A stretch of 64,000 bases of DNA, from the NCBI GenBank assembly GCA_014192065.1, contig BJHH01000001.1, forward strand, positions 248,001-312,000. The letters run 5' to 3'. Both the position numbers and the translations under genes were made by a program. Source of the DNA: Gemmatimonadota bacterium. Its GTDB lineage: Bacteria > Gemmatimonadota > Gemmatimonadetes > Gemmatimonadales > Gemmatimonadaceae. The first letter of the stretch is position 1. Each line of letters opens with the position of its first letter. Below are positions 2,340 to 24,865 of this stretch, piece by piece. The notes under the pieces are model-generated. The model saw nothing but the letters and a program-made list of their open reading frames with translations. It was not told where the DNA came from and made no database searches.

Positions 2340-2476
2340 TTCATTATATAGTGCATCCAGCGTGACGCCTGTTGCGCGCCGGCGGGCTCCGTGGCATTCG
2401 GGTGGTCGTTTCCACGGCGGCATGTAGGGAGACACGCGGACGCCGTAGGCCGTGGCAAAGTGGGACACAAGGGGGC

Positions 2477-2504
2477 TTGCGTGGTCAAAAGCCGCGAATA
2501 ATAT
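2477..2504 (+). promoter_or_regulatory. Candidate sigma-70-type promoter for the SusC operon
   Basis: TTGCGT (2477-2482) and TAATAT (2499-2504) are separated by 16 bases. This is a local AT-rich patch in an otherwise GC-rich leader, about 155 nt before the SusC ATG. Seen by eye only; no scoring was done. Confidence 0.35.
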
Positions 2505-2659
2505 GCTCTCTGTTACCCGTTGGTGGCACGTCAGTTACAGGGCGGCGCTTGCCAGGGTATTCACTAGCAAATGCGGTCAAGTACGCATCGGGGACCGGAG
2601 CGCGCACCGTGCTGTTGTTGTCTTTGCAGTTCCTCCACTTCTTCACGAGAGAGTTCGCG

Positions 2660-5600: not shown

Positions 5601-6013
5601 GCGAAGGTTGGGGTCTGCTCGACTTCAACTCAGGCTACTTCGATATGGCAGCCCAGACAGTCGAGACGGCAAAGCCGCTCGGCTACGGCTGGCGCGTCGG
5701 CGGCTCCGAAGGGGCTGGCACGGGTGGATTCTATGATCTCCTCGGCCCGAACAACTACAACGTCGAAGACGGTTCATACGTCAAGCTTCGCGAACTGAGC
5801 ATCTCCTACAAGGTTGGATCGATCCGCGGCGTGGGTGACTGGACCGTCGGGCTCGTTGGACGCAACCTGAAGACCTTCACGAATTACAGCGGGTACGACC
5901 CCGAAACTGGCGTCTCCGGTGGACAGGCCGGATCGGGACTCATCAATCAGGTTGATGCGTTCGACTTTCCGACGCTCCGTTCATTCACACTTTCGTTCAC
6001 CACGCGGTTCTAG
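2660..6013 (+). CDS. SusC/RagA-family TonB-linked outer-membrane protein
   Basis: A 1117-residue TonB-dependent transporter of the SusC type, which imports oligomeric nutrients through the outer membrane together with SusD. The start at 2660 is chosen because it gives a clean signal peptide (MNRLSRWITAVLAAL..., cleavage near ALAQ) behind GAGAG. After the signal comes a carboxypeptidase-regulatory-like domain (about 25-115), then the plug (about 120-235) with PNPIAALQGKVPGMRI and IESVEVVKGAAGASLYGASA, typical of SusC. The rest is a long beta-barrel ending in aromatic FTTRF, as needed for barrel assembly. Length is normal for the family. A SusD partner begins 15 nt downstream. The substrate cannot be read from sequence; no glycoside hydrolase lies nearby, so the substrate may be peptide or another polymer. 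Confidence 0.95.
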   Translation: MNRLSRWITAVLAALVALPAIALAQGAVITGKVTTEAGLPIEAATIYITEMSLGVQSNAQGVYTLTIPAARVTGANANVRVRAIGYRPDAATIKIVAGRIEQNFTVKTDVNRLSEVVVTGSIEGTARANVPFAIARLTSEDVPVPSPNPIAALQGKVPGMRIASTSGQPGSSPEILMRGPTSINATGRSQSPMIIVDGVIMKVGSLDEIGGLDIESVEVVKGAAGASLYGASAANGVMIIKTRRGGTQDGVRFNVRSEYGFSDVNSLDYGMPVNHHLQLDETGKRFCMAGSGNVAACSRTMVFMDEIMRINSVAADTTRTANPFQWNAPAVAGGELLNVFQAQIWPGQYYNSFAQIAQSNPIKVTSVDATGRMGSTRFFVSGGVTDEGGAMLGLKGQQQIRARVNLDYEARSDLLFSVSTLIDKGTTDTHGASFGTLLRGAPAGTDYLARDTLGRPIIRGGGAGIRGTGNGGGNFLYDAENSISERQSQRVLASLSTTYFPASWISFDGAVGYDSRFRQDQGAAKKGYRTQSVSTGTNLGNMSIGDLTQTSLNASISTTLRKQFGADLNTKLNVKGLYDESNSWSNNGGGQQFIVKDVYTLSNLSTNQTASSSENTVKNMAVVAGANADYKGRYILDGTYRYDGSSLFGSGNRWAPFGRLSGVWRISEESFWTSKKMTDVRFRVSRGTAGNTPSFSAQYETYSCSTTGCSLGQAGNSALKPETTTEIEAGMDFTLFDRLGIEITNANSTTKNQILNVPTPSSLGFTSQWQNAGTLANHTWEVSANLPIISKRDLSWNVRAAFDRTRTFVTELFIPEYFISGGTGQGTGSYFLITARTDKQDGVPVNRYGNVYGRLFYKQCSDMPASVQANCGTGKDYQVDSKGWVVWTGAGNTTADGITKNLWQTKLPAAQSPWNYPLQWGHPIVDRPLKGQKGEGTGTMHILGNSLPNFRTSFNNTITYKKLTVYGLLDGTFGHKINNQGEGWGLLDFNSGYFDMAAQTVETAKPLGYGWRVGGSEGAGTGGFYDLLGPNNYNVEDGSYVKLRELSISYKVGSIRGVGDWTVGLVGRNLKTFTNYSGYDPETGVSGGQAGSGLINQVDAFDFPTLRSFTLSFTTRF

Positions 6014-6027
6014 GAGCCTACCCCGAT

Positions 6028-7722
6028 ATGATGCGCAGACTCCTTCCCCTCGCAGCGCTGGTGGCCATTGTCGGGCTCAGTGCGTGCGAAAAGCAGCTGA
6101 CCGTCACCAATCCGAACTCCGGTGACACGAAGCGGGTGCTCGGCACGCCTGACGACGCCGAAGCGCTGATTGCGACGTATTACAAGCGGTGGTCGAGCGG
6201 CCTGTACGGCAGCACGACCACGCTCGAAGCCATGGCGAACATTTTCTCCATGCAGAACTACTCGAGCTTGGCCAACAACTGTATGAACTCGCACGCCCCG
6301 TTCTCGGGTGCGACCAATGTGAATGCGCCGGGCAACACCTGCTCCGGCGAGCAGTTTCGCGTCTACTCGATCATGAGTGAAGTCAACCGAGTCTCGGCGA
6401 GCTTGTTGACGCAGATGGCGGGAGGTCTGACGCTCGGCAGCGTTGCGCGTGATGCCCGCGCCAAGTCGTGGGCCAACTTCCTGATCGGCCTGTCAACCGG
6501 GTACGTCGCGCTCTATCACGACTCAGGCGCTGTTGTGAGCGTTGGGCAAGATGGCCAGGACGCGGGAAAGCTGATCTCGTACAAGGCGCTCGCCGACTCT
6601 TCGATGGCGGCCTTTCAACGGGCGATCGACGAAGCGAGCAAGCCCGGCGTCACGTCGTCCAGCGGCTTCCCGATTCCAACGGCATGGCTCCCTTCTCCGA
6701 CCGTCTGGACGACCACAGAGTACATCAGGCTCATCCGCAGCTATCGCGCACGGATTCGGGCGGCCGTCGGTCGGTCGCCAGCGGAGCGTGCGGCGGCGGA
6801 CTGGACGGCTATCATTGCTGACGCACAGAATGGCATTACGACCGACCACCTGATCACGACCAGCACGACGCAGGGGCCAGGGCAGTCGTTGGTGGCGACG
6901 TACGACGGCTATGGCACATGGCACCAGATGACGCCGTTCATCATCGGCATGGCGGACGTCTCGGGCAGCTATGGTGCCTGGACGGCGCAGCCGATTTCGG
7001 AACGTGGCTCAGGCAACCAGAGCTTCTTCATGGTGACGCCAGACCTCCGCTTTCCTCAGGGCGATACACGCGCCGCGCAGCAGGCGGACTTCTCGATCAC
7101 GGCCTGTCAGGCGGCGTCGACGCCCTGTAAGCGGTACTTCGTGAACCGTCCGGCTGGTGGCGACCAGTTTGCCGGCCTCGGTTGGGGCTGGTCGAACTAC
7201 GACTTCGTCCGCTTCCATTCGTGGCGGGTGTCCGGCGATGGCACGGCGCAGAATGGCAAGCTGCCGTTCATGGTGAAGCCAGAAATCGACATGCTGCAGG
7301 CCGAGGGCCTGTACCGTAAGGGCGACTTTGCTGGCGCAGCGGCGCTCGTGAACGTGACGCGGGTGCGGAATGGACTGCCTGCCATCACCACGTTTGATGC
7401 GACGTCGCGTGTCCCAGGCGGCACGAAGGACTGCGTCCCGAAGGTTCCAGTTGCGCCGTTCAATGTGGTCGGCTGCGGCAATCTCTGGGAAGCCCTCAAG
7501 TACGAGAAGCGGATTGAGACGGCATACACGCACTCGTCTGCGTGGTACTTCGATAGCCGTGGTTGGGGCGACCTTCCGGCTGAGACACCGCTGTTCTGGG
7601 CGGTGCCGTTCCAGGATCTTCAGGCCCGTGGCTACGCGACCTCGAGCATCTACGGCGCAGGAATCGGCGCCGGAAATGCGCCGGGTTCGTTCGTCGCCAC
7701 GAAGGGCACCTATGGGTGGTAG
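6028..7722 (+). CDS. RagB/SusD-family nutrient-binding lipoprotein (copy 2, complete)
   Basis: A 564-residue SusD homologue and partner of the SusC encoded 15 nt upstream. The N-terminus has a lipoprotein signal with lipobox LSAC (Cys20), and the early phrase LTVTNPNSGDTKRVLGTP is typical of SusD proteins from this lineage. The C-terminal half carries the SusD pattern MLQAEGLYRKGDFAGAAALVN and ends in TYGW. AGGAG (6012-6016) precedes the ATG; a second ATG at 6031 is also possible. It is a close paralogue of the truncated gene at the left edge of the window. It is predicted to sit on the outer face of the outer membrane and close the SusC channel. Confidence 0.95.
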   Translation: MMRRLLPLAALVAIVGLSACEKQLTVTNPNSGDTKRVLGTPDDAEALIATYYKRWSSGLYGSTTTLEAMANIFSMQNYSSLANNCMNSHAPFSGATNVNAPGNTCSGEQFRVYSIMSEVNRVSASLLTQMAGGLTLGSVARDARAKSWANFLIGLSTGYVALYHDSGAVVSVGQDGQDAGKLISYKALADSSMAAFQRAIDEASKPGVTSSSGFPIPTAWLPSPTVWTTTEYIRLIRSYRARIRAAVGRSPAERAAADWTAIIADAQNGITTDHLITTSTTQGPGQSLVATYDGYGTWHQMTPFIIGMADVSGSYGAWTAQPISERGSGNQSFFMVTPDLRFPQGDTRAAQQADFSITACQAASTPCKRYFVNRPAGGDQFAGLGWGWSNYDFVRFHSWRVSGDGTAQNGKLPFMVKPEIDMLQAEGLYRKGDFAGAAALVNVTRVRNGLPAITTFDATSRVPGGTKDCVPKVPVAPFNVVGCGNLWEALKYEKRIETAYTHSSAWYFDSRGWGDLPAETPLFWAVPFQDLQARGYATSSIYGAGIGAGNAPGSFVATKGTYGW

Positions 7723-11056: not shown

Positions 11057-13489
11057 TCACGGCGACTTGTACCGTTTGCGCCAGAGCACCAGTACGCCGC
11101 AGCTCGAATTGAGGTCTGCGTACTCCATCGGCGTCTGCGACGGACCGGCATAGAACTCGACGGCCTCGAGTTCGTCCGTTCTGATGCTATTGACGTCGAA
11201 CGCCGGCGTTGGAAGCCCTGGATTCATCAGGATCCGGTCGAGATACACTTTGGCGTAGCAACCGGCCGGCATGCCCTGGCGTTTCTCGAATGGCTCGGGA
11301 AAGTAGATCGTCGGCGGAGGATCCTGCCCGGGGAGGAAGGCGGGCGCGCGCTTCCCCAGAATCCAGCCTTGCGTGCCGCGTCCGCGTGCGATGGCCGAAC
11401 CGGGCACTGTTGTCATGATGCCGGCAAGCGGTACACCGGACTGCCGCTCGAGCTCGTCGCTCGTGATGAAATGACCGAGGCCGAGCTTGCGGTGTTCGTC
11501 GAAGGTCGAGTGCGGCGTAGCCGCGCCGACGATCACCACAGAGTCGAGGGTGACGAACCGTCGCAACACGATCCGCTGCTCGACCGCACGATTGGCTTCA
11601 AAGGTCACTGCCACGTCGAGCGGGGCGTAGCCTACGCGCCGTGCGACCACCCGATGAGTCCCCGGTGGAATACTGGGTATCCGAAAGAGGCCTCGCGCGT
11701 CGGTGACGGTGCTTTGCGCGAGGGCAGGGAGGGTGACTTCGACGCCGGCCAACGGCTGGAACGTGGTGTCGTTCACCACGGAGCCGGTAAAGACCGCCAG
11801 ACCAGCGCGCAGCGGGTCAACCTCGATCTTCAGGCGCGCGAGCCGGGACTCCGCCGACACGCGGACAAGAGCCGGCGACGCGCTGCCGTTGTCGGGCGTG
11901 GCGCGCACGATCATCGTTGTGCCCACGGGCATGTTGCAGAGCCGAAAATTACCGCGTGCGTCGGTCTTCGTACCGGTCGCATAAGCCTTGCCACTGGGTT
12001 CGCTCCATTCGGCGATGACACCGACGATGCCGAGTGACGAATCGCGCGTTGTGCGCACCGAGCCGATGACGATGCCTTGGCGATTCGTCGCCGCGGGACG
12101 GCCCGCTGCGCCGCTGCAGAGGAACCGCGCGAGTTGCCCGGCGTTCGGAACGCGGAAGCGCAGTGGCGGGCCGGAGTCAGTGATGGCGAGCGGCACCTGA
12201 TGCGCTGCATTGAGCGAGTCGAGCGACGCCGTGCGAATGTCGAGCGTGTACTGGCCCGGAATCACTCCGCCGATTCCAAACCGACCGGCTGCGTCGCTCA
12301 CGGCAGATAGCGCGCCGGGCCTGAGCATGGTGCGCGCCCCGGCCACCGGCGCGCCGGACGCCGAGTCGAGGACGACGCCAGTGAAGGTCATCGGTGGGCG
12401 CGACCAGAGCGTATCGTTGCCGCGTTTGGCGATCGAGAGTTCGCCGCCGGCGATGCGGATCTCGGAAATCTGCGGTTGTGTCCCGCCAAGGGCGCGCCGG
12501 CGCACGACCTGTTGCACGACCGGCATGCGGATGCTCCATCGGCTGATGGCCCACGCCCCGTCGCGCATGCGGACGAACTCCATGCCGCCGCCGCCTTCCT
12601 GTTCCTGTTCGGGCGATGCGTTCACGTAACGGAACTCCATGCTGCGCAGTTCCGATGACGCGCGGTCGAGCCAGACCGTTCCGCGAATCTCGGCGACCTG
12701 CTTGCGTGCCGACGTGGGTTCGAACGCCACGCCGAGGAGCCGGGTATCGCGACCGCTGGCGAGCTTGAAGCAGTGGTCCTCGACGAAGCCGTCCGAGAGC
12801 AGCATCTCGAGACCTGGGGCGTGAAAGGTCACGGCCTCATCGCCCTCGAATACGATGTACCCGATGCGACGCAGACTGTCGGCGCTGAGCGTCAGCCACG
12901 GCTGTTTCGCGTAGTCGGTTTGTAGTGTGGCGGATTGGGCGAGTGTCGGGCGCGCGAGGTGATCGAGGGTGCGTTCGAAGAGGACCGTGGTGGCCATCAC
13001 GCCACGGGAGTATTCCGTGAGCTGCGTGGCGGAGAGGGCGGTGCGGACCTGCTCCCACACCTTGAAGGTCGCGGCCGCGGAATCGGCGTTGAGTCGGCAC
13101 TGACTCGTGCTCCCCACACGCACGGTGTCGAGCGCGAAAGTGACGCCGGTCACCTCGAACCGCTGACGGACTTCCTGGCCAGCGGCCAAGGCGATCGGTG
13201 CGGAGAGCGATGGGCGCCAGCCAATGCGGAGCGTGCGCACCTGGTAGCTGCCCGGCCGCATCGTGGCCACAAAGAACACGCCGCCTTCGTCGCTCAATGC
13301 GCGCGCGGCAACAGTACCGTCGGTGCCGACGAGCTGGATCACCACGCCGGGTACCGGGACACCACCGGCGTCCACGACCATTCCACGAACGGCCTGGGCG
13401 ACCGCGTTATGTGGCATTGCGGTGATGGCGAGTCCGGCGATGGCGACGGCGATCAGGCCTGCGGTCGCGGAACGGAACAGTCGAATCAT
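11057..13489 (-). CDS. Secreted carboxypeptidase-regulatory-repeat protein with terminal plug-like domain
   Basis: An 810-residue exported protein (signal ending NAVAQ near residue 32). It carries about four carboxypeptidase-regulatory-like beta-sandwich units, seen as repeats of the form G-x-V-x-(D/N)-x(n)-P-x-(A/P)-G-(A/V): RGMVVDAGGVPVPGV at the start, FTGVVLDSASGAPVAGA near 375, IGSVRTTRDSS near 490 and FTGSVVNDTTFQPLAGVEV near 590. The last about 130 residues resemble a TonB-receptor plug without any barrel: LGLGHFITSDELE, then Cys744-YAKVYLDR, ELEAVEFYAGP, and Cys797-GVLVLW at the C-terminus. Shorter proteins at 21684 and 37899 share this terminal module. A lipoprotein gene lies 39 nt upstream. 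Function unknown; it probably acts at the outer membrane or in the periplasm. Confidence 0.8.
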   Translation of the reverse strand: MIRLFRSATAGLIAVAIAGLAITAMPHNAVAQAVRGMVVDAGGVPVPGVVIQLVGTDGTVAARALSDEGGVFFVATMRPGSYQVRTLRIGWRPSLSAPIALAAGQEVRQRFEVTGVTFALDTVRVGSTSQCRLNADSAAATFKVWEQVRTALSATQLTEYSRGVMATTVLFERTLDHLARPTLAQSATLQTDYAKQPWLTLSADSLRRIGYIVFEGDEAVTFHAPGLEMLLSDGFVEDHCFKLASGRDTRLLGVAFEPTSARKQVAEIRGTVWLDRASSELRSMEFRYVNASPEQEQEGGGGMEFVRMRDGAWAISRWSIRMPVVQQVVRRRALGGTQPQISEIRIAGGELSIAKRGNDTLWSRPPMTFTGVVLDSASGAPVAGARTMLRPGALSAVSDAAGRFGIGGVIPGQYTLDIRTASLDSLNAAHQVPLAITDSGPPLRFRVPNAGQLARFLCSGAAGRPAATNRQGIVIGSVRTTRDSSLGIVGVIAEWSEPSGKAYATGTKTDARGNFRLCNMPVGTTMIVRATPDNGSASPALVRVSAESRLARLKIEVDPLRAGLAVFTGSVVNDTTFQPLAGVEVTLPALAQSTVTDARGLFRIPSIPPGTHRVVARRVGYAPLDVAVTFEANRAVEQRIVLRRFVTLDSVVIVGAATPHSTFDEHRKLGLGHFITSDELERQSGVPLAGIMTTVPGSAIARGRGTQGWILGKRAPAFLPGQDPPPTIYFPEPFEKRQGMPAGCYAKVYLDRILMNPGLPTPAFDVNSIRTDELEAVEFYAGPSQTPMEYADLNSSCGVLVLWRKRYKSP

Positions 13490-13528: not shown

Positions 13529-14095
13529 TCAACGAGTCAACTGCGCTTTGATGGCGGCCAGTAGTTTCGTCTCAAGCGATCCACGACTGCTGCAGCGCGA
13601 GTAGGCCTGCGAAAACGCGATGGGACGGGCCGACGCCTCGAAGGTTGTTACCAGAGAACTCGACGTGGTGCCAACCGGTCGAACCTGCACGAGGACGGTC
13701 AGGTAGACCTCATACGAATCGGCGTTGGGCCCGATCTGTGTTTCGCCGCAGTCGATGTAGCGACTCAGCGCGACCTTGCCGAGTCGCTGCCGGATCTTGA
13801 ATCCGTTGTTGCCGATGACCTTGCCAGCGGCATCGAGTCGGGTCACGGGCACGCCGACCGAATCGAATGCGGCCGGGAGCACGCGCCAGATGGCGTCCGG
13901 CGTCGCATCCAGCGCATTCAGATTTGGGCCCGACCCGGCCGAGATATTCAGGCGGTCGTTCGAGCCGGCCATGCCAATGCTCGGCATGACGGGTGCCGCA
14001 CCGACCGCGGCCGTACCGGATGACGCACAGGCCCCCGCGGTGAGCAGCACCAACGGGATGAGCGGTCGAAGGATGTTGCAGGCGATTGAGTGCAT
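13529..14095 (-). CDS. Lipoprotein of unknown function
   Basis: A 188-residue predicted lipoprotein: the N-terminal hydrophobic stretch ends in lipobox TAGAC, followed by a low-complexity Ala/Gly linker. The mature domain contains WRVLPAAFDSVGVPVTRLD and a Cys pair (IDCGET and YSRCSS), a pattern of small secreted alpha/beta proteins I cannot assign. The ATG at 14095 is chosen because the longer open frame to 14191 would put 32 polar residues before the signal. It is the first gene of a two-gene unit with the repeat/plug protein, 39 nt downstream. It is transcribed away from the haloperoxidase gene. Confidence 0.75.
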   Translation of the reverse strand: MHSIACNILRPLIPLVLLTAGACASSGTAAVGAAPVMPSIGMAGSNDRLNISAGSGPNLNALDATPDAIWRVLPAAFDSVGVPVTRLDAAGKVIGNNGFKIRQRLGKVALSRYIDCGETQIGPNADSYEVYLTVLVQVRPVGTTSSSLVTTFEASARPIAFSQAYSRCSSRGSLETKLLAAIKAQLTR

Positions 14096-14337
14096 ATGGT
14101 CAGTGATGGGGGCGGCGGCGGGTCCACGGGGCGACTCGGATGCGGTGCGCCGCGGTGCCTCTGGTGGGCAGAAGCGGTGCCAATCCTCCAAGTTACGGGC
14201 TAATGATTGGTCGGGCTAGCGACGGCGACGGCTCTCCGGTGCGTGCGGCCACCCTGCTCCGGGAACTATTTTCTCAGAGCAGGGGTGCGTCCGGGCGGCG
14301 TATCTACAGCGCGGGACCAGCCTGTCCAGCCGAGCCA

Positions 14338-15807
14338 ATGAGGAAGTCCATCAGCGTGCGCATGCGACCGTCGATTGCCGTTGCCGTTATTGCGCTCGGT
14401 TCAGCGTGCCGTGAGGCGCCCGCTGCTGATCCGCGCGTGGTTGGTGAGTTGATGCGTGCCATGTACGGTACGATCCGTGTGGAGCGCATGTCGCCACCGG
14501 TGGCCTCGCGACTGATGAGCTACACGACGGTTGCGCTCTATGGCGGGTTCGTGGCAGCCGATCCGGGACTCCCGTCGCTGGATGGCGCGTTGAACGGCAT
14601 GCCCGCAGTGCATCGCGCGTCTCGGGCGGGCGAACTCGACGGAACGCTGACGGCGTTGGCGGCCACACGAGTGGTCGTCGACTCATTGCTGCGGGAAGCG
14701 CTGCCGACATCGCGTGCCTCGCTGGCGCGATTAGCGGATTCGCTCGCGGCAGCGCGCACGTCGCTTGGCGTGGTTGGCGCGAGTCGTGCCCGATCGGATT
14801 CGGTCGGTCGCCAGCTTGGTCTTTCTATTGTGCGCTGGGCCCACAGCGATGGATTCGGCGCCACGCGAACAATGCCACCATTCGTCGTGCCGGTTGGCCC
14901 GGGGCGCTGGATCAACGACGCACCGGCCAGCACCTTCGCGACGCAGAGCCTTTCAGGAACGAGCGATCTCGTCACACCGGCCAATCCAGCGAACCAGTTG
15001 CGTGGGGCCAATAGCAGCGATCGGGCGTTGATCCTCAGCCGGCCGAAGTCCGCGACCGTCAAGTCCGTTCCTGCCGTCAACATGTCGGGTATGTCGGAGC
15101 CGTACTGGGGCACGGTGCGTCCGTTCGCGCTCGTGCGCTGGGACGAATGCCCGATCGCCGAACCGCCGGCCTATTCGACGAACAGGTCGTCTCCGATGTA
15201 CCGGAACGCGCAGGAGGTGTGGGACGTGACGGCGGCACTCACACCCGAACAACGCACGATTGCGCTCTACTGGGCCGACAACGCGGGTGAGTCGGGCACG
15301 CCGGTCGGACACTGGATTTCGATTGCGAGCCAGATGGTGAGCGAACGGCACCTCTCCGCGGCCGACGGCGCCCGCGTCGAGATGTTCACGGCCGTGGCGA
15401 TGGCCGACGCGTTTATTGCGTCGTGGGGATACAAGTACCAATACACGCTGCTCCGCCCTCGCACCTACATTCGGCGCCTGATCGATCCGGCCTGGGAACC
15501 ACTCATTCCGACTCCGCCATTTCCCGAGTACCCGTCAGGCCACTCCACGCAGTCGGCTGCGGCCGCGACGGTGCTCGCGGGTCTGATCGGCGACGGGGCA
15601 TTCGACGACAGCACCAGCATCTCGATCGGCCATGCCGTGCGCCGGTTCCCTTCGTTCCGCGCGGCGGCCGATGAGGCGGGGCTGTCACGCGTCTACGGGG
15701 GAATTCACTATCCCGCAGGCAACCTGAGTGGTCGCGAGTTGGGCACCTGCATCGGCAAAAAGGTTGTAGCGCGGGCAGGTGGCACCGCATCATCGAGCGC
15801 GCGATGA
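14338..15807 (+). CDS. Vanadium-dependent haloperoxidase / PAP2-superfamily lipoprotein
   Basis: A 489-residue exported protein; the signal peptide ends in a lipobox-like LGSAC. The C-terminal half has the vanadate/phosphate-binding signature of the haloperoxidase-PAP2 fold: K366-x6-R373-P, then PSGHS (399-403), then S450-R451-x5-H457. Family members oxidise halides with hydrogen peroxide using bound vanadate, or act as acid phosphatases. In the third motif the His is followed by YPAGN, so the acidic residue four places later in many PAP2 phosphatases is glycine here. The length and the phrase SRVYGGIHYPAGN are typical of bacterial haloperoxidase-like proteins. The stop overlaps the start of the FG-GAP/UnbV gene (ATGA), so the two are translationally coupled. 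Halide choice cannot be predicted. Confidence 0.88.
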   Translation: MRKSISVRMRPSIAVAVIALGSACREAPAADPRVVGELMRAMYGTIRVERMSPPVASRLMSYTTVALYGGFVAADPGLPSLDGALNGMPAVHRASRAGELDGTLTALAATRVVVDSLLREALPTSRASLARLADSLAAARTSLGVVGASRARSDSVGRQLGLSIVRWAHSDGFGATRTMPPFVVPVGPGRWINDAPASTFATQSLSGTSDLVTPANPANQLRGANSSDRALILSRPKSATVKSVPAVNMSGMSEPYWGTVRPFALVRWDECPIAEPPAYSTNRSSPMYRNAQEVWDVTAALTPEQRTIALYWADNAGESGTPVGHWISIASQMVSERHLSAADGARVEMFTAVAMADAFIASWGYKYQYTLLRPRTYIRRLIDPAWEPLIPTPPFPEYPSGHSTQSAAAATVLAGLIGDGAFDDSTSISIGHAVRRFPSFRAAADEAGLSRVYGGIHYPAGNLSGRELGTCIGKKVVARAGGTASSSAR

Positions 15808-18800
15808 CGGCGATCCGAATCGTGAAGTGCCGCGCGTTGGTGGCCCGCGCGTGGACAGCCCTCGGCTTGGTGGCCCTCGTGTCCGCTGCCTGTGGGCCGC
15901 GGCCAACTTCGGCCTGGCACGCGGAGGCTGGCTACCGCTGGCGCGACCTCGATGTGCGCGGCGGCCGAGCCGGGTTCACCCAAATGGGTTCGTCGACCAC
16001 GGGCATCGCTTTCGAAAACACTGTCAGCGAGTCGTCGCTGGTCGCCAATCGAATTCTTGGTCAGGGCGCTGGTGTCGCACTCGGTGACGTGGACGGCGAC
16101 GGGCGCGTGGATCTCTTTCTCGCGCGCACGGAAGGCTGCAGCGCGCTCTTCCGCAACCTCGGAGGATGGCGATTCGAGGAGGTCACGGTGGCCGCCGGCG
16201 TTGGGGCATGCGGGCGCCACGCGACGGGTACTGCATTCGCCGATCTGGACGCCGACGCTGATCTCGACTTGGTCCTGCTCGCCACGACGGGTCCGAACAC
16301 CATCTTCCTGAACGACGGCGCGGGGAAGTTCGCGGAGCATCGAGACCTCGGGCTCGACACGACCGGTCGTGGTGGCGTTACGGTGGCGATGGCCGACGTG
16401 GACGGCAGCGGTAAGTTGGCGCTCTACGTCGCCAACTACAACGCGTACAACATCGAAGATCGTGTGCCGCCGCAACAGCGCGCGTTCAGTCAGCTCGTTC
16501 GGCCGGCAGGGAAGGACCAGGCCGGCAAGGACCGCTACGCGGTGATGGATGATTTCCAGCGTGACTACAAGCTTGTGGACCGCCCGGACCTTGGCGGCAT
16601 GCGGCTGAGTCAACGCGCGGCGGCGGACGAGTTCTATGTCAGTGACGGGAAGGGCCACTTTACTCGTGAGGCGATGACCGCTGGGCGATTTCGCGACGCC
16701 ACCGGCGCGCGCATCACCGAAACGGCGGAGTCCTTCACCCTTGGTGCGCGGTTCGCCGACCTCAACGGCGACGGCGCGCCGGACTTGTATGTCGGCAACG
16801 ATTTTGAAGACAGGGATCAGCTCTGGTTCAATGACGGACGCGGTGGCTTTCGTCTAGGCGGTTGGACTGCGCAACGCCAGCTGAGCAACTCGACGATGGG
16901 CATCGACGTCGGTGACGTGAACGGCGACGGACTGCTCGATCTGTTTTGTGTCGACATGCTCGCGAACGATTCGCACCAGCTGCGGACCCAGATCCCGACC
17001 AGCACATCATTTCCGAAGCAGCCCGGTGACCTCACGTCGCAGCTCCAGTACCAGCGGAACTCGCTGTACATCAATCGTGGTGATGGGACGTTCGCCGAGG
17101 CCGCGCAGTACGCGGGCGTGGCAGCGAGCGGTTGGTCGTGGGGCACGATGTTTCTCGACGTGGATCTCGACGGCTGGCAGGACATCCTCGTGGCCAACGG
17201 GCATCTCTGGGACATCATGGACGCCGACGTCCAGGAGGGACTCCAGAACCGACTGAACAGCTTCGATTGGCGGCGGTTGCGCTGGCAGTTTCCGAAGCTG
17301 GCGCTCAAGAACGTGGCCTACCGCAATCGCGGCGACCTCACGTTTGAGGACGCAAGTCTCTCGTGGGGATTCGGGCTCGAGGACGACGTGTCGCACGCCC
17401 TCGCTGCGGCAGACCTTGATGACGACGGTGATCTTGACGTCGTGGTCAACCGCCTGGACGCACCGGCGCTCATTCTCAGAAACAACGCGAAAGCGGCTCG
17501 CGTCGCGGTGCGGCTCCAGGGTGACGCGCCAAATACGCAGGCCGTCGGTGCGGTGATCCGGCTCGAGGGCGGGGCGGTGCCGCTTCAAATTCGCGAGGTG
17601 GCGGTCGGCGGTCTGTATATGTCGCATAGCGACTACGTCGCGTCGTTTGCCATGGGCACGTCCGACAGCGCGACCCTCGTGGTGCAGTGGCGTGATGGCC
17701 GTCGCACGACCATCGCGGGAGTACGAGGCAATCGCATGTACGAGATCCGTGCAACCGCGTCGGCCGTCACGCCGTCGGCGAATGCGGCGTCGGCGAATGC
17801 GGAGTTGGCGAATGCGGAGTTGGCGCGCTCCACGCAGGCGGAGGAGAGCGCGAACTCCGCGCTCTTCGTCGACGTGAGTGCCGATCTTCGCGCTCACACC
17901 CACAGCGAAGCGGCGTTCGACGACTGGGGCCGGCAGTTTCTCTTGCCCGACGCGCTGTCGCCGCTTGGTCCGGGCGTCGCCTGGTTTGACACGGACCGCG
18001 ACGGCAACGAAGAGCTTCTCGTTGGCGCGGGCAAGGGCGGGCGTATCGCACAGTTTCAAAACGTTGGCGGGCGCATGGCGCCGACCGCCGCGCTCTTTCC
18101 GGTTGCTGCCGCGAGCCTCACCGGTGTGATTGGTGTTGCCGAGGGCACACGCACGCGCCTCTTTGCCGGCGTGTCGACCTGGCAGGCACTGAGTGACTCC
18201 GAAATGGTCGCGCAGCCGGCGGTCATCGGAATGACCCTCCATCGAGGGATTCCCGCGGCCGCAGCCGACGCGCTTGTGGGTTCGCATGCGTCAGCGACTG
18301 GTCCGATCGCCGTGGCCGACTACGACGGCGACGGCGCGCTCGACCTGTTCGTTGGCTCGCGCGCGATCCCGATGGGGTATCCGCTTCCGCCCTCATCGGG
18401 TCTCTTCAAGAGCGTGAACGGGCGGTTCGTGCACGACACGGTCAACGCCGCGGAGCTGAACGCCGTGGGCATGGTGTCGGCGGCGACCTTTGCCGATCTG
18501 AACGGCGATGGGCACGCCGATCTATTGCTCGCACGGGAGTGGGATTCGATCCTCCTTCTGCTCAACGACGGGCGTGGTCGTTTCACGCGTGCGCCGGCGT
18601 CGTGGGGGCTCGACCGGTTCACCAGCCGGTGGAATGGCGTCGCCACCGGCGACCTAGACGGCGACGGGCGCCTCGATCTCGTTGCCACCTCGTGGGGCCG
18701 TAACACGCCGATGCAGGCTGACAGTGCGCGCCCACTCGTGGTGCTGCACGGACCGGTCGGCAGCCGCGGTGAGCAGGAGATGATTCTCGCGCGCCACGAT

Positions 18801-19607
18801 GCGCGAATCGGGGGCCTCGCACCGCTGACCACCTACGCGCGTGCGCGCGTCGCCATTCCCGACCTCGTGCGTACCGTCGGCACCTTTGCGGCGTGGGCCG
18901 ACTCGTCGGTCGAGAAATCGTTCCAGACGCAGAGGGGGAAGATGTCGCGGATGAAGGTGGTAACACTCGACCAGACCGCGTTTATGAATCGTGGCGACCG
19001 GTTCGAAGCGGTGCCCCTTGCGAGCGAAGCGCAGCTGGCACCGGCCTTTGCCGCCGCGATCGCCGACTTTGACGGCGACGGCACGGAAGATCTGTTCCTC
19101 GGCCAGAATTTTTCGCAGACGACGATTGGTTGGCCGCGCGCCGACGCCGGCCGTGGCCTCCTCTTGCAGAACGATGGGACCGGCAAGCTCGTGCCGTTGA
19201 CCGGGCGACGTTCGGGTCTGGTGATCTACGGAGATCAGCGTGGCGCGGCGTACGCCGATTACGATGGCGACGGCCGGCTCGATCTCGCGGTCTCGCAAAA
19301 CGCGGGCGCGACGCGCCTGTTCCACAACAGGGGTGCGCGGCCGGCGCTCCGCGTTCGCGTGAAGGGTACCGCATCCAATCCCGATGGAGTCGGCGTGCAG
19401 CTTCGCCTAGTCTACGGCGAACGGATGGGGCCGGTGCGTGAGGTGCAGGCCGGTTCGGGGTACTGGTCGCAGAACGGCGCGGTGCAGCTGTTGGGAAAGG
19501 CGGCTGAGCCGACGGCGATCTGGGTGCGCTGGCCGGGCGGTGCGGTCACGCGCGTGGCGGTGCCGTCGGGCGCGCGCGAAGTGGTCGTGTCGCCACCACC
19601 GCGCTGA
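15804..19607 (+). CDS. Large secreted FG-GAP/VCBS-repeat protein with two UnbV (CRTAC1-like) modules
   Basis: A 1267-residue protein; the N-terminal signal has a lipobox-like SAAC. It contains many FG-GAP/VCBS calcium-binding blades of the form D-x-D-G-D-G-x-x-D-L, for example DVDGDGRVDLFL and DFDGDGTEDLFLG, which build a beta-propeller. The first half ends in an UnbV/ASPIC-like domain (about 570-650, VAVGGLYMSHSDYV...WRDGR), and the second half repeats the plan and ends in another (about 1185-1265, VQAGSGYWSQNG...IWVRWPGG). A repetitive Ala/Asn/Glu linker encoded by 15-bp repeats joins them. UnbV/CRTAC1 proteins are secreted or surface-bound; their enzymology is unknown. The 4-nt overlap with the haloperoxidase gene implies joint production. 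Confidence 0.9.
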   Translation: MTAIRIVKCRALVARAWTALGLVALVSAACGPRPTSAWHAEAGYRWRDLDVRGGRAGFTQMGSSTTGIAFENTVSESSLVANRILGQGAGVALGDVDGDGRVDLFLARTEGCSALFRNLGGWRFEEVTVAAGVGACGRHATGTAFADLDADADLDLVLLATTGPNTIFLNDGAGKFAEHRDLGLDTTGRGGVTVAMADVDGSGKLALYVANYNAYNIEDRVPPQQRAFSQLVRPAGKDQAGKDRYAVMDDFQRDYKLVDRPDLGGMRLSQRAAADEFYVSDGKGHFTREAMTAGRFRDATGARITETAESFTLGARFADLNGDGAPDLYVGNDFEDRDQLWFNDGRGGFRLGGWTAQRQLSNSTMGIDVGDVNGDGLLDLFCVDMLANDSHQLRTQIPTSTSFPKQPGDLTSQLQYQRNSLYINRGDGTFAEAAQYAGVAASGWSWGTMFLDVDLDGWQDILVANGHLWDIMDADVQEGLQNRLNSFDWRRLRWQFPKLALKNVAYRNRGDLTFEDASLSWGFGLEDDVSHALAAADLDDDGDLDVVVNRLDAPALILRNNAKAARVAVRLQGDAPNTQAVGAVIRLEGGAVPLQIREVAVGGLYMSHSDYVASFAMGTSDSATLVVQWRDGRRTTIAGVRGNRMYEIRATASAVTPSANAASANAELANAELARSTQAEESANSALFVDVSADLRAHTHSEAAFDDWGRQFLLPDALSPLGPGVAWFDTDRDGNEELLVGAGKGGRIAQFQNVGGRMAPTAALFPVAAASLTGVIGVAEGTRTRLFAGVSTWQALSDSEMVAQPAVIGMTLHRGIPAAAADALVGSHASATGPIAVADYDGDGALDLFVGSRAIPMGYPLPPSSGLFKSVNGRFVHDTVNAAELNAVGMVSAATFADLNGDGHADLLLAREWDSILLLLNDGRGRFTRAPASWGLDRFTSRWNGVATGDLDGDGRLDLVATSWGRNTPMQADSARPLVVLHGPVGSRGEQEMILARHDARIGGLAPLTTYARARVAIPDLVRTVGTFAAWADSSVEKSFQTQRGKMSRMKVVTLDQTAFMNRGDRFEAVPLASEAQLAPAFAAAIADFDGDGTEDLFLGQNFSQTTIGWPRADAGRGLLLQNDGTGKLVPLTGRRSGLVIYGDQRGAAYADYDGDGRLDLAVSQNAGATRLFHNRGARPALRVRVKGTASNPDGVGVQLRLVYGERMGPVREVQAGSGYWSQNGAVQLLGKAAEPTAIWVRWPGGAVTRVAVPSGAREVVVSPPPR
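17778..17822 (+). repeat. 15-bp tandem repeat (3 copies) in the UnbV protein gene
   Basis: Units 17778-17792, 17793-17807 and 17808-17822. Units 2 and 3 are identical (GCGAATGCGGAGTTG) and the first differs at three bases. It encodes an Ala-Asn-Ala-(Ser/Glu)-rich linker between the two propeller/UnbV halves; the length (multiple of 3) keeps the frame. Confidence 0.9.
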
Positions 19608-21683: not shown

Positions 21684-22448
21684 TCACGGCTTGCCAGGGA
21701 TGCGCGTCCAGATGAGGATCGTGCCGCAGGGCACGGCGTTGGCGGAATGAGAAAACTGCGATGGAACCGTGGCGAACGAGTCGTAGAGTTCCATCGCTTC
21801 GACTGTGGTGGCCACCACGTCATCGACCTCCATTCCCCGCGCCCGTTGTCCGTCCAACCACAGGTCAGGGATGCAGCCCCCCCGCGGGCCGCTGTAGGTC
21901 GCGAATCGCACGCCCATGCGATTCGTGCCGATCTTCACCAGGATGACGCCGCGGCGAGTTTGGAGCGCGTCGCTCAGGCGAAGGCTGTTCCGATCGGTGA
22001 TGTCTTTGCGGGTGACAAATAGTCCGAGCCCCTGCGCCTTACGCTCGCCGAATGTGCGCAACCCTTCGAGCGCGCGCTGGTTGCGATCGCCTGCGACCGT
22101 CACGCCTGGAAGTTCCTGGGAAATGTCTTCCAGCTCCACCATGACCGTGTCCCACTGCTTGTTTCGTGCGCTGAGCAATGCTTCGATGGCGGAATAGCCG
22201 AGTCGGCGGATCGAAATGGTGACGGTGTCGATATTCAGCGTCCAGAGGCGAAACAGGCCGGCCGAATCAGTCCGGACCGCGATACCGGGAATCTCGACGG
22301 CTGCGTCGCGGATGCCTCGACCGTTCGCATCGCGGACGACACCGACGAGTTCGCGCAGAGTGGACTGCGCGCCGGCGCCAGCCGAGAGGATGGCCAGCCC
22401 GACAATCGCAGAGAATGGAAGCGTCAGCGTGGTCCGGGAGTACTTCAT
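21684..22448 (-). CDS. Short exported carboxypeptidase-regulatory + barrel-less plug-like protein
   Basis: A 254-residue secreted protein. The signal peptide ends near AGAGAQ. One carboxypeptidase-regulatory-like domain (about 30-110, LVGVVRDANGRGIRDAAVEI) is followed by a TonB-plug-like domain: GLGLFVTRKDITD (141-153), Cys192 in GGCIPDLWLDG, VEAMELYD, and Cys241 in the terminal PCGTILIWTR. There is no beta-barrel. The same module closes the proteins at 11057 and 37899; in this one and in 37899 the two cysteines are 49 residues apart, which suggests a structural disulfide. Divergent to the TPM gene. Function unknown; it could be a decoy or partner for TonB-linked receptors, but that is speculation. 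Confidence 0.75.
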   Translation of the reverse strand: MKYSRTTLTLPFSAIVGLAILSAGAGAQSTLRELVGVVRDANGRGIRDAAVEIPGIAVRTDSAGLFRLWTLNIDTVTISIRRLGYSAIEALLSARNKQWDTVMVELEDISQELPGVTVAGDRNQRALEGLRTFGERKAQGLGLFVTRKDITDRNSLRLSDALQTRRGVILVKIGTNRMGVRFATYSGPRGGCIPDLWLDGQRARGMEVDDVVATTVEAMELYDSFATVPSQFSHSANAVPCGTILIWTRIPGKP

Positions 22449-22660
22449 TAACTTCGAATCTCACCGGCCCGGCCGCTCGACGCCAGAGGGTGTGCCAGAT
22501 GCGGGAGGCGGGGTCGGCGCTGGTCTGGCCAGCCGTTAGTTTTCGCAGACGACCCGATTCGGGGTCTCCCAGCCTGCCCACGGCTCCCTCCTTGTCTATT
22601 CGCCCGATACTGCTGGCGCTTTCGATCTTTCCGCGTCCGCGCGCTGCGATAGCCTTGTGC

Positions 22661-23485
22661 GTGACCCGACTGGCGTTCGTCGCGCTGCTCTGTGCAGCCG
22701 CTGGCGACGCGCGGGCGCAGCAGCCGCTGACGATTCCGGCGCCACGCGGCATGCTCAGCGATTTCGCCGGCGTGGTGACGGCCGAACGGGCACAGCAGAT
22801 CGAAGCGCTCGCGCAATTCGTCCGTGCGAAGGGCGGTGGCGAGATCGCGGTGGTCACGTTGCCCGATCTGGCCGGGCGCGATGTCGCCGAGGTGGCGCTG
22901 CAGATTGGGCGCGAGTGGAAGGTTGGCGCGAACGCCGGCGTGGGCGATGCGCGGCGGAACGCTGGCGTCGTCGTCCTGGTGGTGCCGAAGGAGTCGAGCG
23001 CGGACGGACGCGGTTACATCAACATCCAGACCGGGCAGGGCGTCGAGGGTTTTATTCCAGACGCCGTGGCTGGCGACATCCGTCGCGAAGCGGTGCCGTA
23101 CCTCCAGCAGGCTGACTATGCTAGTGCGCTGCTGCTCATCACGCTGCGAATTTCCGAGCGCTACGCGACCGAGTTTGGGTTCTCGCTCGACTCGGCGGGC
23201 GTGCCGCGCGCCGGGCGCAGCAGAAATGCGCGGGGCACACCAAAGGGCGTGTCGCCGATCCTCGCCCTCATCGTGTTCGTGGGCCTCGTGCTGCTGTCCG
23301 GCCGCGGCAGCCGCGGTGGTGGCGCCGGCCGCAGTGGCTGCGCGGGCTTCATCCTCGGCCAGCTCATTGGGCAGGCGCTCGGCGGCCGTGGCGGCGGATT
23401 CGGTGGTGGGGGCGGTGGCGGCGGGTTCGGCGGGTTCGGTGGCGGCGGCGGGTTCTCGGGTGGCGGATCAAGCGGTAGCTGGTGA
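22661..23485 (+). CDS. TPM-domain (YgcG-type) membrane-anchored protein
   Basis: A 274-residue protein. A signal peptide (ending near ARAQQ) is followed by a TPM domain (about residues 28-180): GMLSDFAGVVTAERAQQIEALA, then IAVVTLPDL and the phrase GVVVLVVPKE. One membrane helix (ILALIVFVGLVLLS) and a long Gly-rich tail ending SGGGSSGSW close the protein, as in other YgcG-type TPM proteins. TPM proteins are found in bacterial membranes (often beside LemA) and in chloroplast photosystem II repair. The GTG at 22661 is the start that best fits the signal peptide; an upstream TTG near 22591 would add 23 residues. The first gene of a unit with the nucleotidyltransferase-like gene and LemA. Confidence 0.85.
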   Translation: MTRLAFVALLCAAAGDARAQQPLTIPAPRGMLSDFAGVVTAERAQQIEALAQFVRAKGGGEIAVVTLPDLAGRDVAEVALQIGREWKVGANAGVGDARRNAGVVVLVVPKESSADGRGYINIQTGQGVEGFIPDAVAGDIRREAVPYLQQADYASALLLITLRISERYATEFGFSLDSAGVPRAGRSRNARGTPKGVSPILALIVFVGLVLLSGRGSRGGGAGRSGCAGFILGQLIGQALGGRGGGFGGGGGGGGFGGFGGGGGFSGGGSSGSW

Positions 23486-23515
23486 CCAGATGACGGCACT
23501 GACCACGGAGTCGGT

Positions 23516-24229
23516 ATGACACTTGATGAGCTGGTGGCACAACTTAAGACGGCGCACGGCGACGCGTTGGCCGGGGTGGTTGTCTATGGGTCAACTGCGA
23601 CGGATATGACCGCCAAGAAAGGGCACAACGTCGTGGTGGTCGTGCACACGCTCGATCTGGCCGCGATGCAGGCCGATGGTGCGATCGGGCGGTCGTGGCA
23701 GGAAGCGGGCAATGCCGTGCCGCTCACGTTGACGGACGCGGAATGGCGCTCAAGTGTGGATGTGTTTGCGATCGAGCATGCAGACATCGCCGAGCGCCAT
23801 CGCGTGGTTTTTGCCGCGGACGGATTCGCGGTGAGCGACCGCGTGTCGATTCGTGACGAAGACGTGCGCCGTCAGCTGGAATATGAATCACTCGCGCTCC
23901 TGCTTTCGGTGCGGTCGGGGATTGTTGCGGCGGGCCGCGACGTGTCGGCGCGGCGCGCCTTGTTGGCGAGTCAGGCGAGCAGGGCCATCGCAATGTTCCG
24001 GGCGACCGTTCGCTTGAGTGGTGCAGCGCCTGCGGGCGATGCGGAAGCCGTCTGTGCACAGGCCGCGACCGTCGCTGGATTTGACCCCGCACCCTTTATG
24101 GCGGCGCATCTACAGCGCCGTAAGACCAAAGAGGTGCCGAAGGCAGAGCTCGACTCGACTCTTGGCGGATTCCATGCGGGCCTCGCCCGACTCGTGGCGT
24201 ACGTCGACACGAGGTCGCACGACCGATAG
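23516..24229 (+). CDS. Degenerate nucleotidyltransferase-fold protein
   Basis: A 237-residue cytoplasmic protein. The N-terminus begins like a minimal nucleotidyltransferase (GVVVYGSTATD, about 20-30), the GS loop that binds the nucleotide. However, the metal-binding acidic pair that should follow (DxD) is replaced by histidine and valine (KKGHNVVVVV), so catalysis is doubtful. The C-terminal half (about 120-230) is helical, with YESLALLLSVRSGI, similar to the HEPN-like or helical tails of such proteins. A GGAG sequence lies before the ATG. It sits between TPM (30 nt upstream) and LemA (48 nt downstream), usually neighbours, so it may belong to that membrane system. Function unproven. Confidence 0.65.
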   Translation: MTLDELVAQLKTAHGDALAGVVVYGSTATDMTAKKGHNVVVVVHTLDLAAMQADGAIGRSWQEAGNAVPLTLTDAEWRSSVDVFAIEHADIAERHRVVFAADGFAVSDRVSIRDEDVRRQLEYESLALLLSVRSGIVAAGRDVSARRALLASQASRAIAMFRATVRLSGAAPAGDAEAVCAQAATVAGFDPAPFMAAHLQRRKTKEVPKAELDSTLGGFHAGLARLVAYVDTRSHDR

Positions 24230-24277
24230 CGATATATTTCCTCCAGTATTCTTACTTTTTCGTGGGTGACAAAACAG

Positions 24278-24865
24278 ATGCGAATGACACGTTCGACCAT
24301 GGCGCCGGTCCTGTTGGCACTGACCGTGCTGACGTCCGGCTGCGGCTACAACACGATCCAGACCCTTGATGAGGGCGCGAATAAGTCCAAGCAGCAGATT
24401 TCGGTGCAGTTGCAGCGCCGAGCGGACCTCATTCCGAACCTCGTCGAGGTGGTGAAGGGGTTCGCGAAACAGGAGTCCGAAGTGTTCACAAACGTGGCAG
24501 AGGCGCGCGCAAAGTTGGCGGGTGCGGCGACGAGCGGTGACCTCGGCCAGATGTCCGCTGCATCAGGCCAGATGAATGGCGCCCTTGGTCGGCTGCTTGC
24601 GATCAGCGAGTCGTATCCGCAACTCAAGTCGAACGAGAACTTCATCCGCCTGCAGGATGAGTTGGCGGGCACGGAGAACCGCGTCGGTGTGGCGAGAACT
24701 GATTACAACACATCGGTGAGCGACTACAACACGTACATCCGCAAGTTCCCACAGCTGGTGACGGCCAAGGTGATGGGGATGAAGCCGCGCGAGTATTTCG
24801 AGTTGGAGAGTGCGGCAGCCGCGGCCGCACCGAAGGTGGAATTCTCGGCGCCCAAGCAACCGTAG
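24278..24865 (+). CDS. LemA-family lipoprotein
   Basis: A 195-residue LemA protein. The N-terminal signal has a lipobox (LTSGC), followed by the family signature: GYNTIQTLDEGANKSKQQI and QLQRRADLIPNLVEVVKG, then NVAEARAKL and LKSNENFIRLQDELAGTENR. It forms a four-helix bundle facing the periplasm. LemA is widespread and its precise role is unknown, but it is regularly linked to TPM-domain proteins, as here. The start could also be the GTG at 24266 or ATG at 24284. The C-terminus is Ala-rich. A strong hairpin follows 21 nt after the stop. Confidence 0.92.
   Translation: MRMTRSTMAPVLLALTVLTSGCGYNTIQTLDEGANKSKQQISVQLQRRADLIPNLVEVVKGFAKQESEVFTNVAEARAKLAGAATSGDLGQMSAASGQMNGALGRLLAISESYPQLKSNENFIRLQDELAGTENRVGVARTDYNTSVSDYNTYIRKFPQLVTAKVMGMKPREYFELESAAAAAAPKVEFSAPKQP

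Follow-up and report, generated by a model that had tools for sequence, protein, structure and literature searches.

What do enzymes of the vanadium iodoperoxidase (VIPO) type do in soil and freshwater bacteria? The question is raised by a pair of overlapping genes in a Gemmatimonadota bacterium (assembly GCA_014192065.1, contig BJHH01000001.1), located in a stretch of 64,000 nucleotides that spans positions 248,001 to 312,000 of the forward strand and is hereafter called the window; coordinates are those of the window. The first gene encodes a vanadium-haloperoxidase-like enzyme (VHPO), and the second encodes a large propeller protein with FG-GAP and UnbV domains (UnbV). The pair is laid out as follows:

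14338-15807, forward strand: vanadium-haloperoxidase-like gene (VHPO; 489 amino acids [aa], VIPO1-type, PAP2 superfamily), with ATG at 14338 and stop TGA at 15805-15807
14338-14409, forward strand: VHPO export signal with lipobox LGSAC (Cys24), from the sequence and a lipobox scan
15804-15807, forward strand: ATGA stop/start overlap of VHPO and UnbV, kept as NTGA in clade A, the window's clade
15804-15893, forward strand: UnbV export signal with lipobox VSAAC (Cys30), from the sequence and a lipobox scan
15804-19607, forward strand: double FG-GAP/UnbV propeller gene (1267 aa, CRTAC1-like), with ATG at 15804 and a stop ending at 19607

The answer that we favor, at roughly even odds, is that VHPO and UnbV form one conserved two-part cell-envelope haloperoxidase module that is used in sugar acquisition. 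VHPO would be a lipoprotein enzyme of the family of ZgVIPO1, a vanadium iodoperoxidase, with vanadate held by K366, R373, S400-G401-H402, R451, and H457; the bound vanadate would take H2O2 and oxidize a halide, most likely iodide and possibly bromide, to hypohalous acid. UnbV would be translated from the shared mRNA through stop-start coupling and, as a calcium-type double beta-propeller lipoprotein, would most likely dock the enzyme at the envelope and/or present its acceptor. The module probably serves the uptake of plant or algal sugars, a role proposed because it recurs in xylose operons of Proteobacteria and near SusC loci of Gemmatimonadota.

Conserved linkage of the two genes

The original prediction described genes that overlap by ATGA and products that both carry export signals, and both statements hold: the overlap is exact, and both signals are of the lipobox type, according to the PROSITE pattern, applied by script. 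Among 95 VHPO-to-UnbV pairs, the lipobox fits 51 VHPO and 54 UnbV N-termini, and both members in 44 pairs, with most of the fits in Gemmatimonadota. The alphaproteobacterial N-termini that we inspected by eye have mostly plain or Tat-like signals, and the twin-arginine-like signals on the VHPOs of loci L171 and L179 hint at a folded, cofactor-loaded enzyme being exported.

The co-occurrence analysis suggested with the original prediction was run on three samples of loci, and it finds the pair conserved, not absent, in related genomes. For sample 1, the window VHPO matched 83 of 298 genomes of its own phylum, Gemmatimonadota, and 80 loci were taken, leaving out two places with E < 1e-40 (G270:C51 and G215:C193) and including 22 weaker loci. 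Genes scoring at least 400 against a VHPO profile were called VIPO-like (60 genes, the window's included), and distant homologues (<300) served as a control that was not pooled with them; hidden Markov model pieces below 80 bits were dropped from counts and those below 100 bits from the tree, and neighboring genes were called by our own open reading frame (ORF) heuristic. A same-strand UnbV gene lies within 1 kb at 54 of the 60 VIPO-like genes and at none of the 24 distant VHPO genes or gene fragments, which come from 22 loci (Fisher, P = 9e-16). Of the six exceptions, four are truncated at the ends of contigs; the other two are L114 and a gene in L081. In that locus (L081:7401-17836), an inverted VHPO-UnbV pair is found between the VHPO and the UnbV of an apparent second pair, as if by cassette insertion.

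Sample 2 comprises the best 80 of 596 stretches from a scan of public genomes with an alignment-derived peptide pattern, blind to neighbors; a scan of genome contigs for near relatives with the window VHPO alone gave no match, whereas the alignment query did. Here, 66 of the 80 loci have a UnbV neighbor (61/75 without five Gemmatimonadota loci; L137, L138, and L140 repeat sample 1, L082 and L137 being one locus), including all 43 from Alphaproteobacteria, all 7 from Betaproteobacteria, and 11 of the 21 from Bacteroidota, with weak UnbV matches (32-37 bits) in two of the 50 proteobacterial loci, L150 and L155. The proteobacterial figures rest on this sample, since a class-wide draw around the genome of L153 added no further copy among 337 genomes at 1e-40. 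In sample 3, a Bacteroidota draw that took the best place per genome in 59 of 60 genomes (the remaining one is the genome of L204, already sampled), UnbV is present within 1 kb in 33/59 and within the fetched stretch in 42/59. A tree of VHPO sequences (161 rows, 158 of them different; FastTree, midpoint root) places 140 rows on one branch, starred in the tree, of which 120 have UnbV, 12 lack it, and 8 are cut, and on its other side UnbV accompanies none of the 21 rows. The pairing is real and old. Furthermore, with two UnbV-bearing genes in the window's genome, adjacency of one of them to VHPO would arise by chance in about 0.2% of cases, assuming one gene per 1.1 kb.

VHPO and UnbV stay adjacent although their order differs between groups. 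Among the 40 clade A genes, UnbV follows VHPO in 33 and precedes it in 3; it is downstream in 43/43 Alphaproteobacteria and upstream in 7/7 Betaproteobacteria. In Bacteroidota, 32 loci of sample 3 have it upstream and 2 have it downstream, and it is downstream in 5 of 6 Chitinophagia loci of sample 2. Of 34 distinct clade A pairs, 30 keep the overlap in frame as NTGA (33/37 with repeats), where roughly 24% or less would be expected by a crude estimate, indicating that it is not due to chance; elsewhere it is found in 7/13 clade B pairs and 22/49 other pairs. Such an overlap suggests translational coupling of the two genes on a common mRNA. Pairwise distances of VHPO and UnbV, computed without species-tree correction, are closely correlated (r = 0.94, 47 pairs, permutation maximum 0.18; r = 0.94, 44 pairs, permutation maximum 0.25 after removal of repeats), and where a genome has two pairs (five genomes), each VHPO type lies beside its matching UnbV type. 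Linkage, coupling, and matched divergence are shown by the analysis, and physical contact between the two proteins is a prediction. The "stoichiometric pair" of the original prediction goes too far, as UnbV genes flank 17 of the 60 VIPO-like genes of sample 1 on both sides and many UnbV homologues occur without VHPO.

A linked cassette that travels between genomes, its products having neither physical nor functional contact, would also keep two genes together. The spread of the window's VHPO type is patchy within its genus, since it is absent from all 10 other sampled genomes, 5 of which carry a VHPO that is 42-44% identical; this, together with the seemingly inserted pair of L081 and a UnbV-VHPO-UnbV set on a Gemmatirosa plasmid record, is what a mobile cassette might leave behind. 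We nevertheless consider a cassette without contact quite improbable, given that adjacency survives changes of order, that the overlap is conserved, and that partner types match in the two-pair genomes.

Fold and pocket of the enzyme, and its propeller partner

The PAP2 domain is present in VHPO (Pfam PF01569, 3.2e-9, 37.1 bits against a cut-off of 27.2), and no NCBIfam model matched the protein at E 0.001. In a search of the PDB, a single marine iodoperoxidase, ZgVIPO1 of Zobellia galactanivorans (PDB 4CIT, 4USZ), is the top and only close solved relative (phmmer 9e-61; family profile 6e-165). The predicted VHPO model (predicted local distance difference test score [pLDDT] 83.4) superimposes on 4cit with a Z score of 46.8 and a root mean square deviation of 2.3 over 397 residues (Foldseek template modeling score 0.88-0.89 by target). 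The same model gives Z scores of about 29-31 to chloroperoxidase-type VHPOs, among them the Curvularia inaequalis vanadium chloroperoxidase and bacterial NapH1/NapH3, which share the fold more distantly, and of about 11-13 to acid phosphatases and algal bromoperoxidases alike, so that Z alone cannot separate haloperoxidases from phosphatases. Conservation was read from two alignments, A1 (26 rows) and A2 (43 sequences from several phyla), in which the pocket motifs appear as follows:

15424-15456, forward strand: motif 1, W363..K366..R373 (vanadate/halide pocket), which does not vary in A1 or A2 and aligns with its counterparts in chloroperoxidase and 4cit
15535-15543, forward strand: motif 2, S400-G401-H402, with H402 invariant and S400 and G401 at 90% or more in A2
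15688-15708, forward strand: motif 3, R451..H457, invariant in A1 and A2 and followed by Gly461 at His+4

Seven residues (W363, K366, R373, F395, H402, R451, and H457) are invariant across A2, and the predicted vanadate-binding set of K, R, S-G-H, R, and H is complete in the window VHPO and aligns with the chloroperoxidase pocket. W363 and F395 align with the halide pocket of that enzyme. Judged by its model, VHPO is therefore best described as a predicted close structural relative of ZgVIPO1 that keeps the vanadate-pocket residues. Besides fold and pocket, the two share a nonacidic His+4 and, in our reading of the alignments, an Asn where chloroperoxidase has Asp292; they differ in that VHPO is 36% identical to ZgVIPO1 over the aligned part. 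The clade A enzymes also have an extra, poorly predicted stretch at residues ~197-246 that is absent from clade B proteins. In 4 of the 26 A1 rows (L076, L077, L078, and L082), all near relatives of the window enzyme, the vanadate-contacting Ser position is Ala (PAGH for PSGH); the window enzyme has the Ser.

Classical PAP2 acid phosphatases have an acidic residue four positions past the motif 3 histidine. The original prediction read the glycine of GGIHYPAGN at this position as a sign that the reaction may differ from that of phosphatases. The residue, Gly461, was correctly identified, and it is no peculiarity of this enzyme, since ZgVIPO1 has Ala there (HYRAA) and most A1 rows likewise lack an acid; the fungal chloroperoxidase, with the same W, K, R, F, SGH, R, H pocket, has Asp. 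The nonacidic His+4 thus sets VHPO apart from classical PAP2 phosphatases and not from its own family.

These observations bear on the view that VHPO is a PAP2-fold envelope phosphatase acting on sugar phosphates or phosphorylated glycans, with the propeller binding the glycan. The Pfam match and the sugar-uptake neighborhood described below would suit such an enzyme, and the title of PDB entry 3bb0 refers to an apo-chloroperoxidase with phosphatase chemistry. In both fold and sequence, however, VHPO is far nearer to ZgVIPO1 than to acid phosphatases (Z of 46.8 versus ~13), it lacks the acid after motif 3, and its invariant W363 and F395 align with the chloroperoxidase halide pocket, which makes a phosphatase rather unlikely. 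For the haloperoxidase that we prefer, the halide cannot be read from sequence, because a VHPO grouped with ZgVIPO1-like sequences was a chloro/bromoperoxidase according to a preprint (PMC12871659).

The partner is, by its predicted model, a doubled CRTAC1/UnbV beta-propeller. Pfam finds 8 FG-GAP_3 and 2 UnbV_ASPIC stretches in the protein, arranged as follows:

15966-17759, forward strand: first propeller and first UnbV domain (residues ~55-652), from the model against CRTAC1 9etn
17541-17741, forward strand: first UnbV_ASPIC domain, from a domain scan of the genome
17856-19343, forward strand: second propeller (residues ~685-1180; model range 649-1144), with generic propeller matches only
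19386-19559, forward strand: second, weak UnbV_ASPIC domain, from a domain scan of the genome

In the model of residues 37-1236 (pLDDT 78.1), the first half matches mouse CRTAC1 (9ETN) with a Z of 39.9 over 451 residues, and the second half forms a further propeller, whose matches are generic (Z 24-32). A profile search recovers CRTAC1 at 3.4e-37 and, weakly, integrin alpha propellers. Like CRTAC1 and bacterial UnbV/ASPIC proteins, UnbV has an FG-GAP propeller followed by a UnbV domain; it differs from them in being doubled in one chain with a bacterial lipoprotein-type signal and in being coupled to an enzyme gene. Its 12 DxDxDG-type motifs suggest that the propeller binds calcium. The sugar enzyme aldos-2-ulose dehydratase (4a7k), which contains a propeller, matches the second propeller with a Z of 26.4, but it does so amid unrelated propellers (Z 24-32) and stays short of E 0.01 in the sequence-profile search, and we draw no inference from it. 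UnbV exceeds 1000 aa in Gemmatimonadota and Bacteroidota and measures ~510-580 aa in Alphaproteobacteria.

Sugar-uptake genes near the pair

Relatives of the pair recur near or inside sugar-uptake loci, a link that is absent from the original prediction and was unexpected. Neighbor clusters were named through one representative each, by NCBIfam. In Proteobacteria, the neighbors comprise a xylose-type ABC transporter (XylF-like at 329 bits, below its cut-off of 390, with a sugar-type permease and ATPase), a ROK-type regulator, and xylulokinase and xylose isomerase (both over cut-off). The XylF-like gene is present at 24 of the 50 proteobacterial loci (18/43 alphaproteobacterial and 6/7 betaproteobacterial), counted without a baseline control, and also at the sole Deinococcota locus, which is without UnbV. 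In the specific case of L157, we observe the order xylF-xylH-xylG-xylB-xylA-VHPO-UnbV on one strand, and L179 (Pseudotabrizicola algicola ETT8) is similar; xylose genes also adjoin the pair in L196 (Rhodoferax sp. TH121).

Of the 60 VIPO-like genes of Gemmatimonadota, 40 have a SusC-like gene (scoring at least 400 bits) no more than 9 kb away, versus 4 of the 24 distant ones (P = 3.5e-5), and the Pfam-supported SusD cluster F6 accompanies 15/60 (all in the clade B set with L114 and L115) versus 0/24; the SusC and SusD profiles were built from the VIPO-like genes' own neighbors, which biases both comparisons in their favor. A looser count (SusC at 46/59 and SusD at 30/59 loci) was rejected, as its SusC cluster caught CarboxypepD_reg proteins such as that at 11057-13489 of the window, and cluster F5 was rejected as SusD since it matches no SusD family. 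Some Bacteroidota loci hold SusD-like, GH20, or GH65 genes, and on a Hymenobacter plasmid GH43 genes surround a VHPO that lacks UnbV and whose annotation splits it into two short ORFs. Several lone UnbV genes lie beside a TonB-receptor-sized and a SusD-sized gene (L121:1661-6802, and similarly in L122-L124, L133, and L135); of these, only L121 has a confirmed SusC, and its second gene matches none of the SusD families.

The window itself contains three further genes of interest upstream of the pair:

2372-6013, forward strand: SusC/RagA-family gene (TIGR04056, 437 bits, cut-off 368), 8.3 kb upstream of the pair
6028-7722, forward strand: 564-aa gene in the SusD position after SusC, homologous to cluster F5, 6.6 kb upstream of the pair
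13529-14107, reverse strand: small divergent gene, a candidate third part, which has no family match and whose homologues occur near the pair in six further distinct loci

Unlike the relatives that lie inside xylose (xylFHG/xylAB) operons, the window's pair is not contiguous with its sugar-uptake gene, as other genes, some on the opposite strand, lie between the SusC region (2372-7722) and the pair. Homologues of the 564-aa gene, from cluster F5, are found near other clade A pairs. Downstream, the stretch 22415-24865 contains a TPM-domain gene, a gene of no named family, and a LemA gene. In several relatives, homologous clusters are found a short way upstream of the pair.

Weighing the module and its meaning

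Besides the limits given above for the Z scores, the halide, the xyl-type count, and the SusC/SusD profiles, several observations weigh against a sugar-acquisition module. The 564-aa gene after the window's SusC matches no family, SusD included, and 17 of the 43 alphaproteobacterial loci, some of them on short contigs, have none of the tested xyl-type genes. UnbV is missing within 1 kb at 26/59 and over the whole fetched stretch at 17/59 Bacteroidota places of sample 3, as well as at two Hymenobacteraceae plasmid VHPO loci, and no fused VHPO-UnbV ORF was found in the loci examined. Conversely, of 90 window-UnbV matches scoring 800 bits or more, 35 are on a contig that also has a window-VHPO match (a hand count, with at most two UnbV candidates scored per genome), and a search for VHPO remnants at 20 lone UnbV loci found none, its rerun recovering both positive-control loci and nothing else. 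At these 20 opened loci, UnbV stands alone, beside more UnbV genes, or by SusC-like genes. The dependence is thus one-sided, in that UnbV does not need VHPO. Long UnbV genes can also be arranged in tandem or clustered without VHPO (L119:6873-14304, L134:5184-15025, and L130), with a shorter UnbV-like gene between them in L130 and L134.

Such one-sidedness is what one would expect if UnbV were a maturation factor for VHPO, assisting folding, vanadate loading, or export, and not its working partner: VIPO-like VHPOs of Gemmatimonadota and Proteobacteria rarely occur without UnbV, UnbV often occurs without VHPO, and its homologues lie beside SusC-like genes and other UnbV genes as a general helper might. 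Against this stand the many Bacteroidota VHPOs that have no UnbV within 1 kb, and UnbV is itself large and exported, so that we regard a maturation factor as unlikely compared with the envelope module proposed here.

A search of the literature found no paper joining haloperoxidase with UnbV, CRTAC1, VCBS repeat, or FG-GAP, which is weak evidence given that most subscription papers lay outside it, and papers pairing haloperoxidase with xylose isomerase were, by title and opening of the abstract, on other topics. UnbV/CRTAC1 proteins are not known to have a settled role in bacteria.

For fungal chloroperoxidases, a role in attacking lignocellulose has been proposed. More tentatively, and with considerable doubt, the pair might be a widespread and so far undescribed oxidative module of sugar foraging, in which hypohalite formed at the envelope would act on the phenolic or halogenated matrix that surrounds xylan-type or algal glycans, loosening or detoxifying it, under co-regulation with xylose or SusC-type uptake. 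The conserved pair gives each of the two families a likely partner and suggests a common task for VHPO and UnbV at the cell surface. The xylose and SusC neighborhoods point to a condition under which the pair may be active, namely growth on xylose, xylan, or other glycans.

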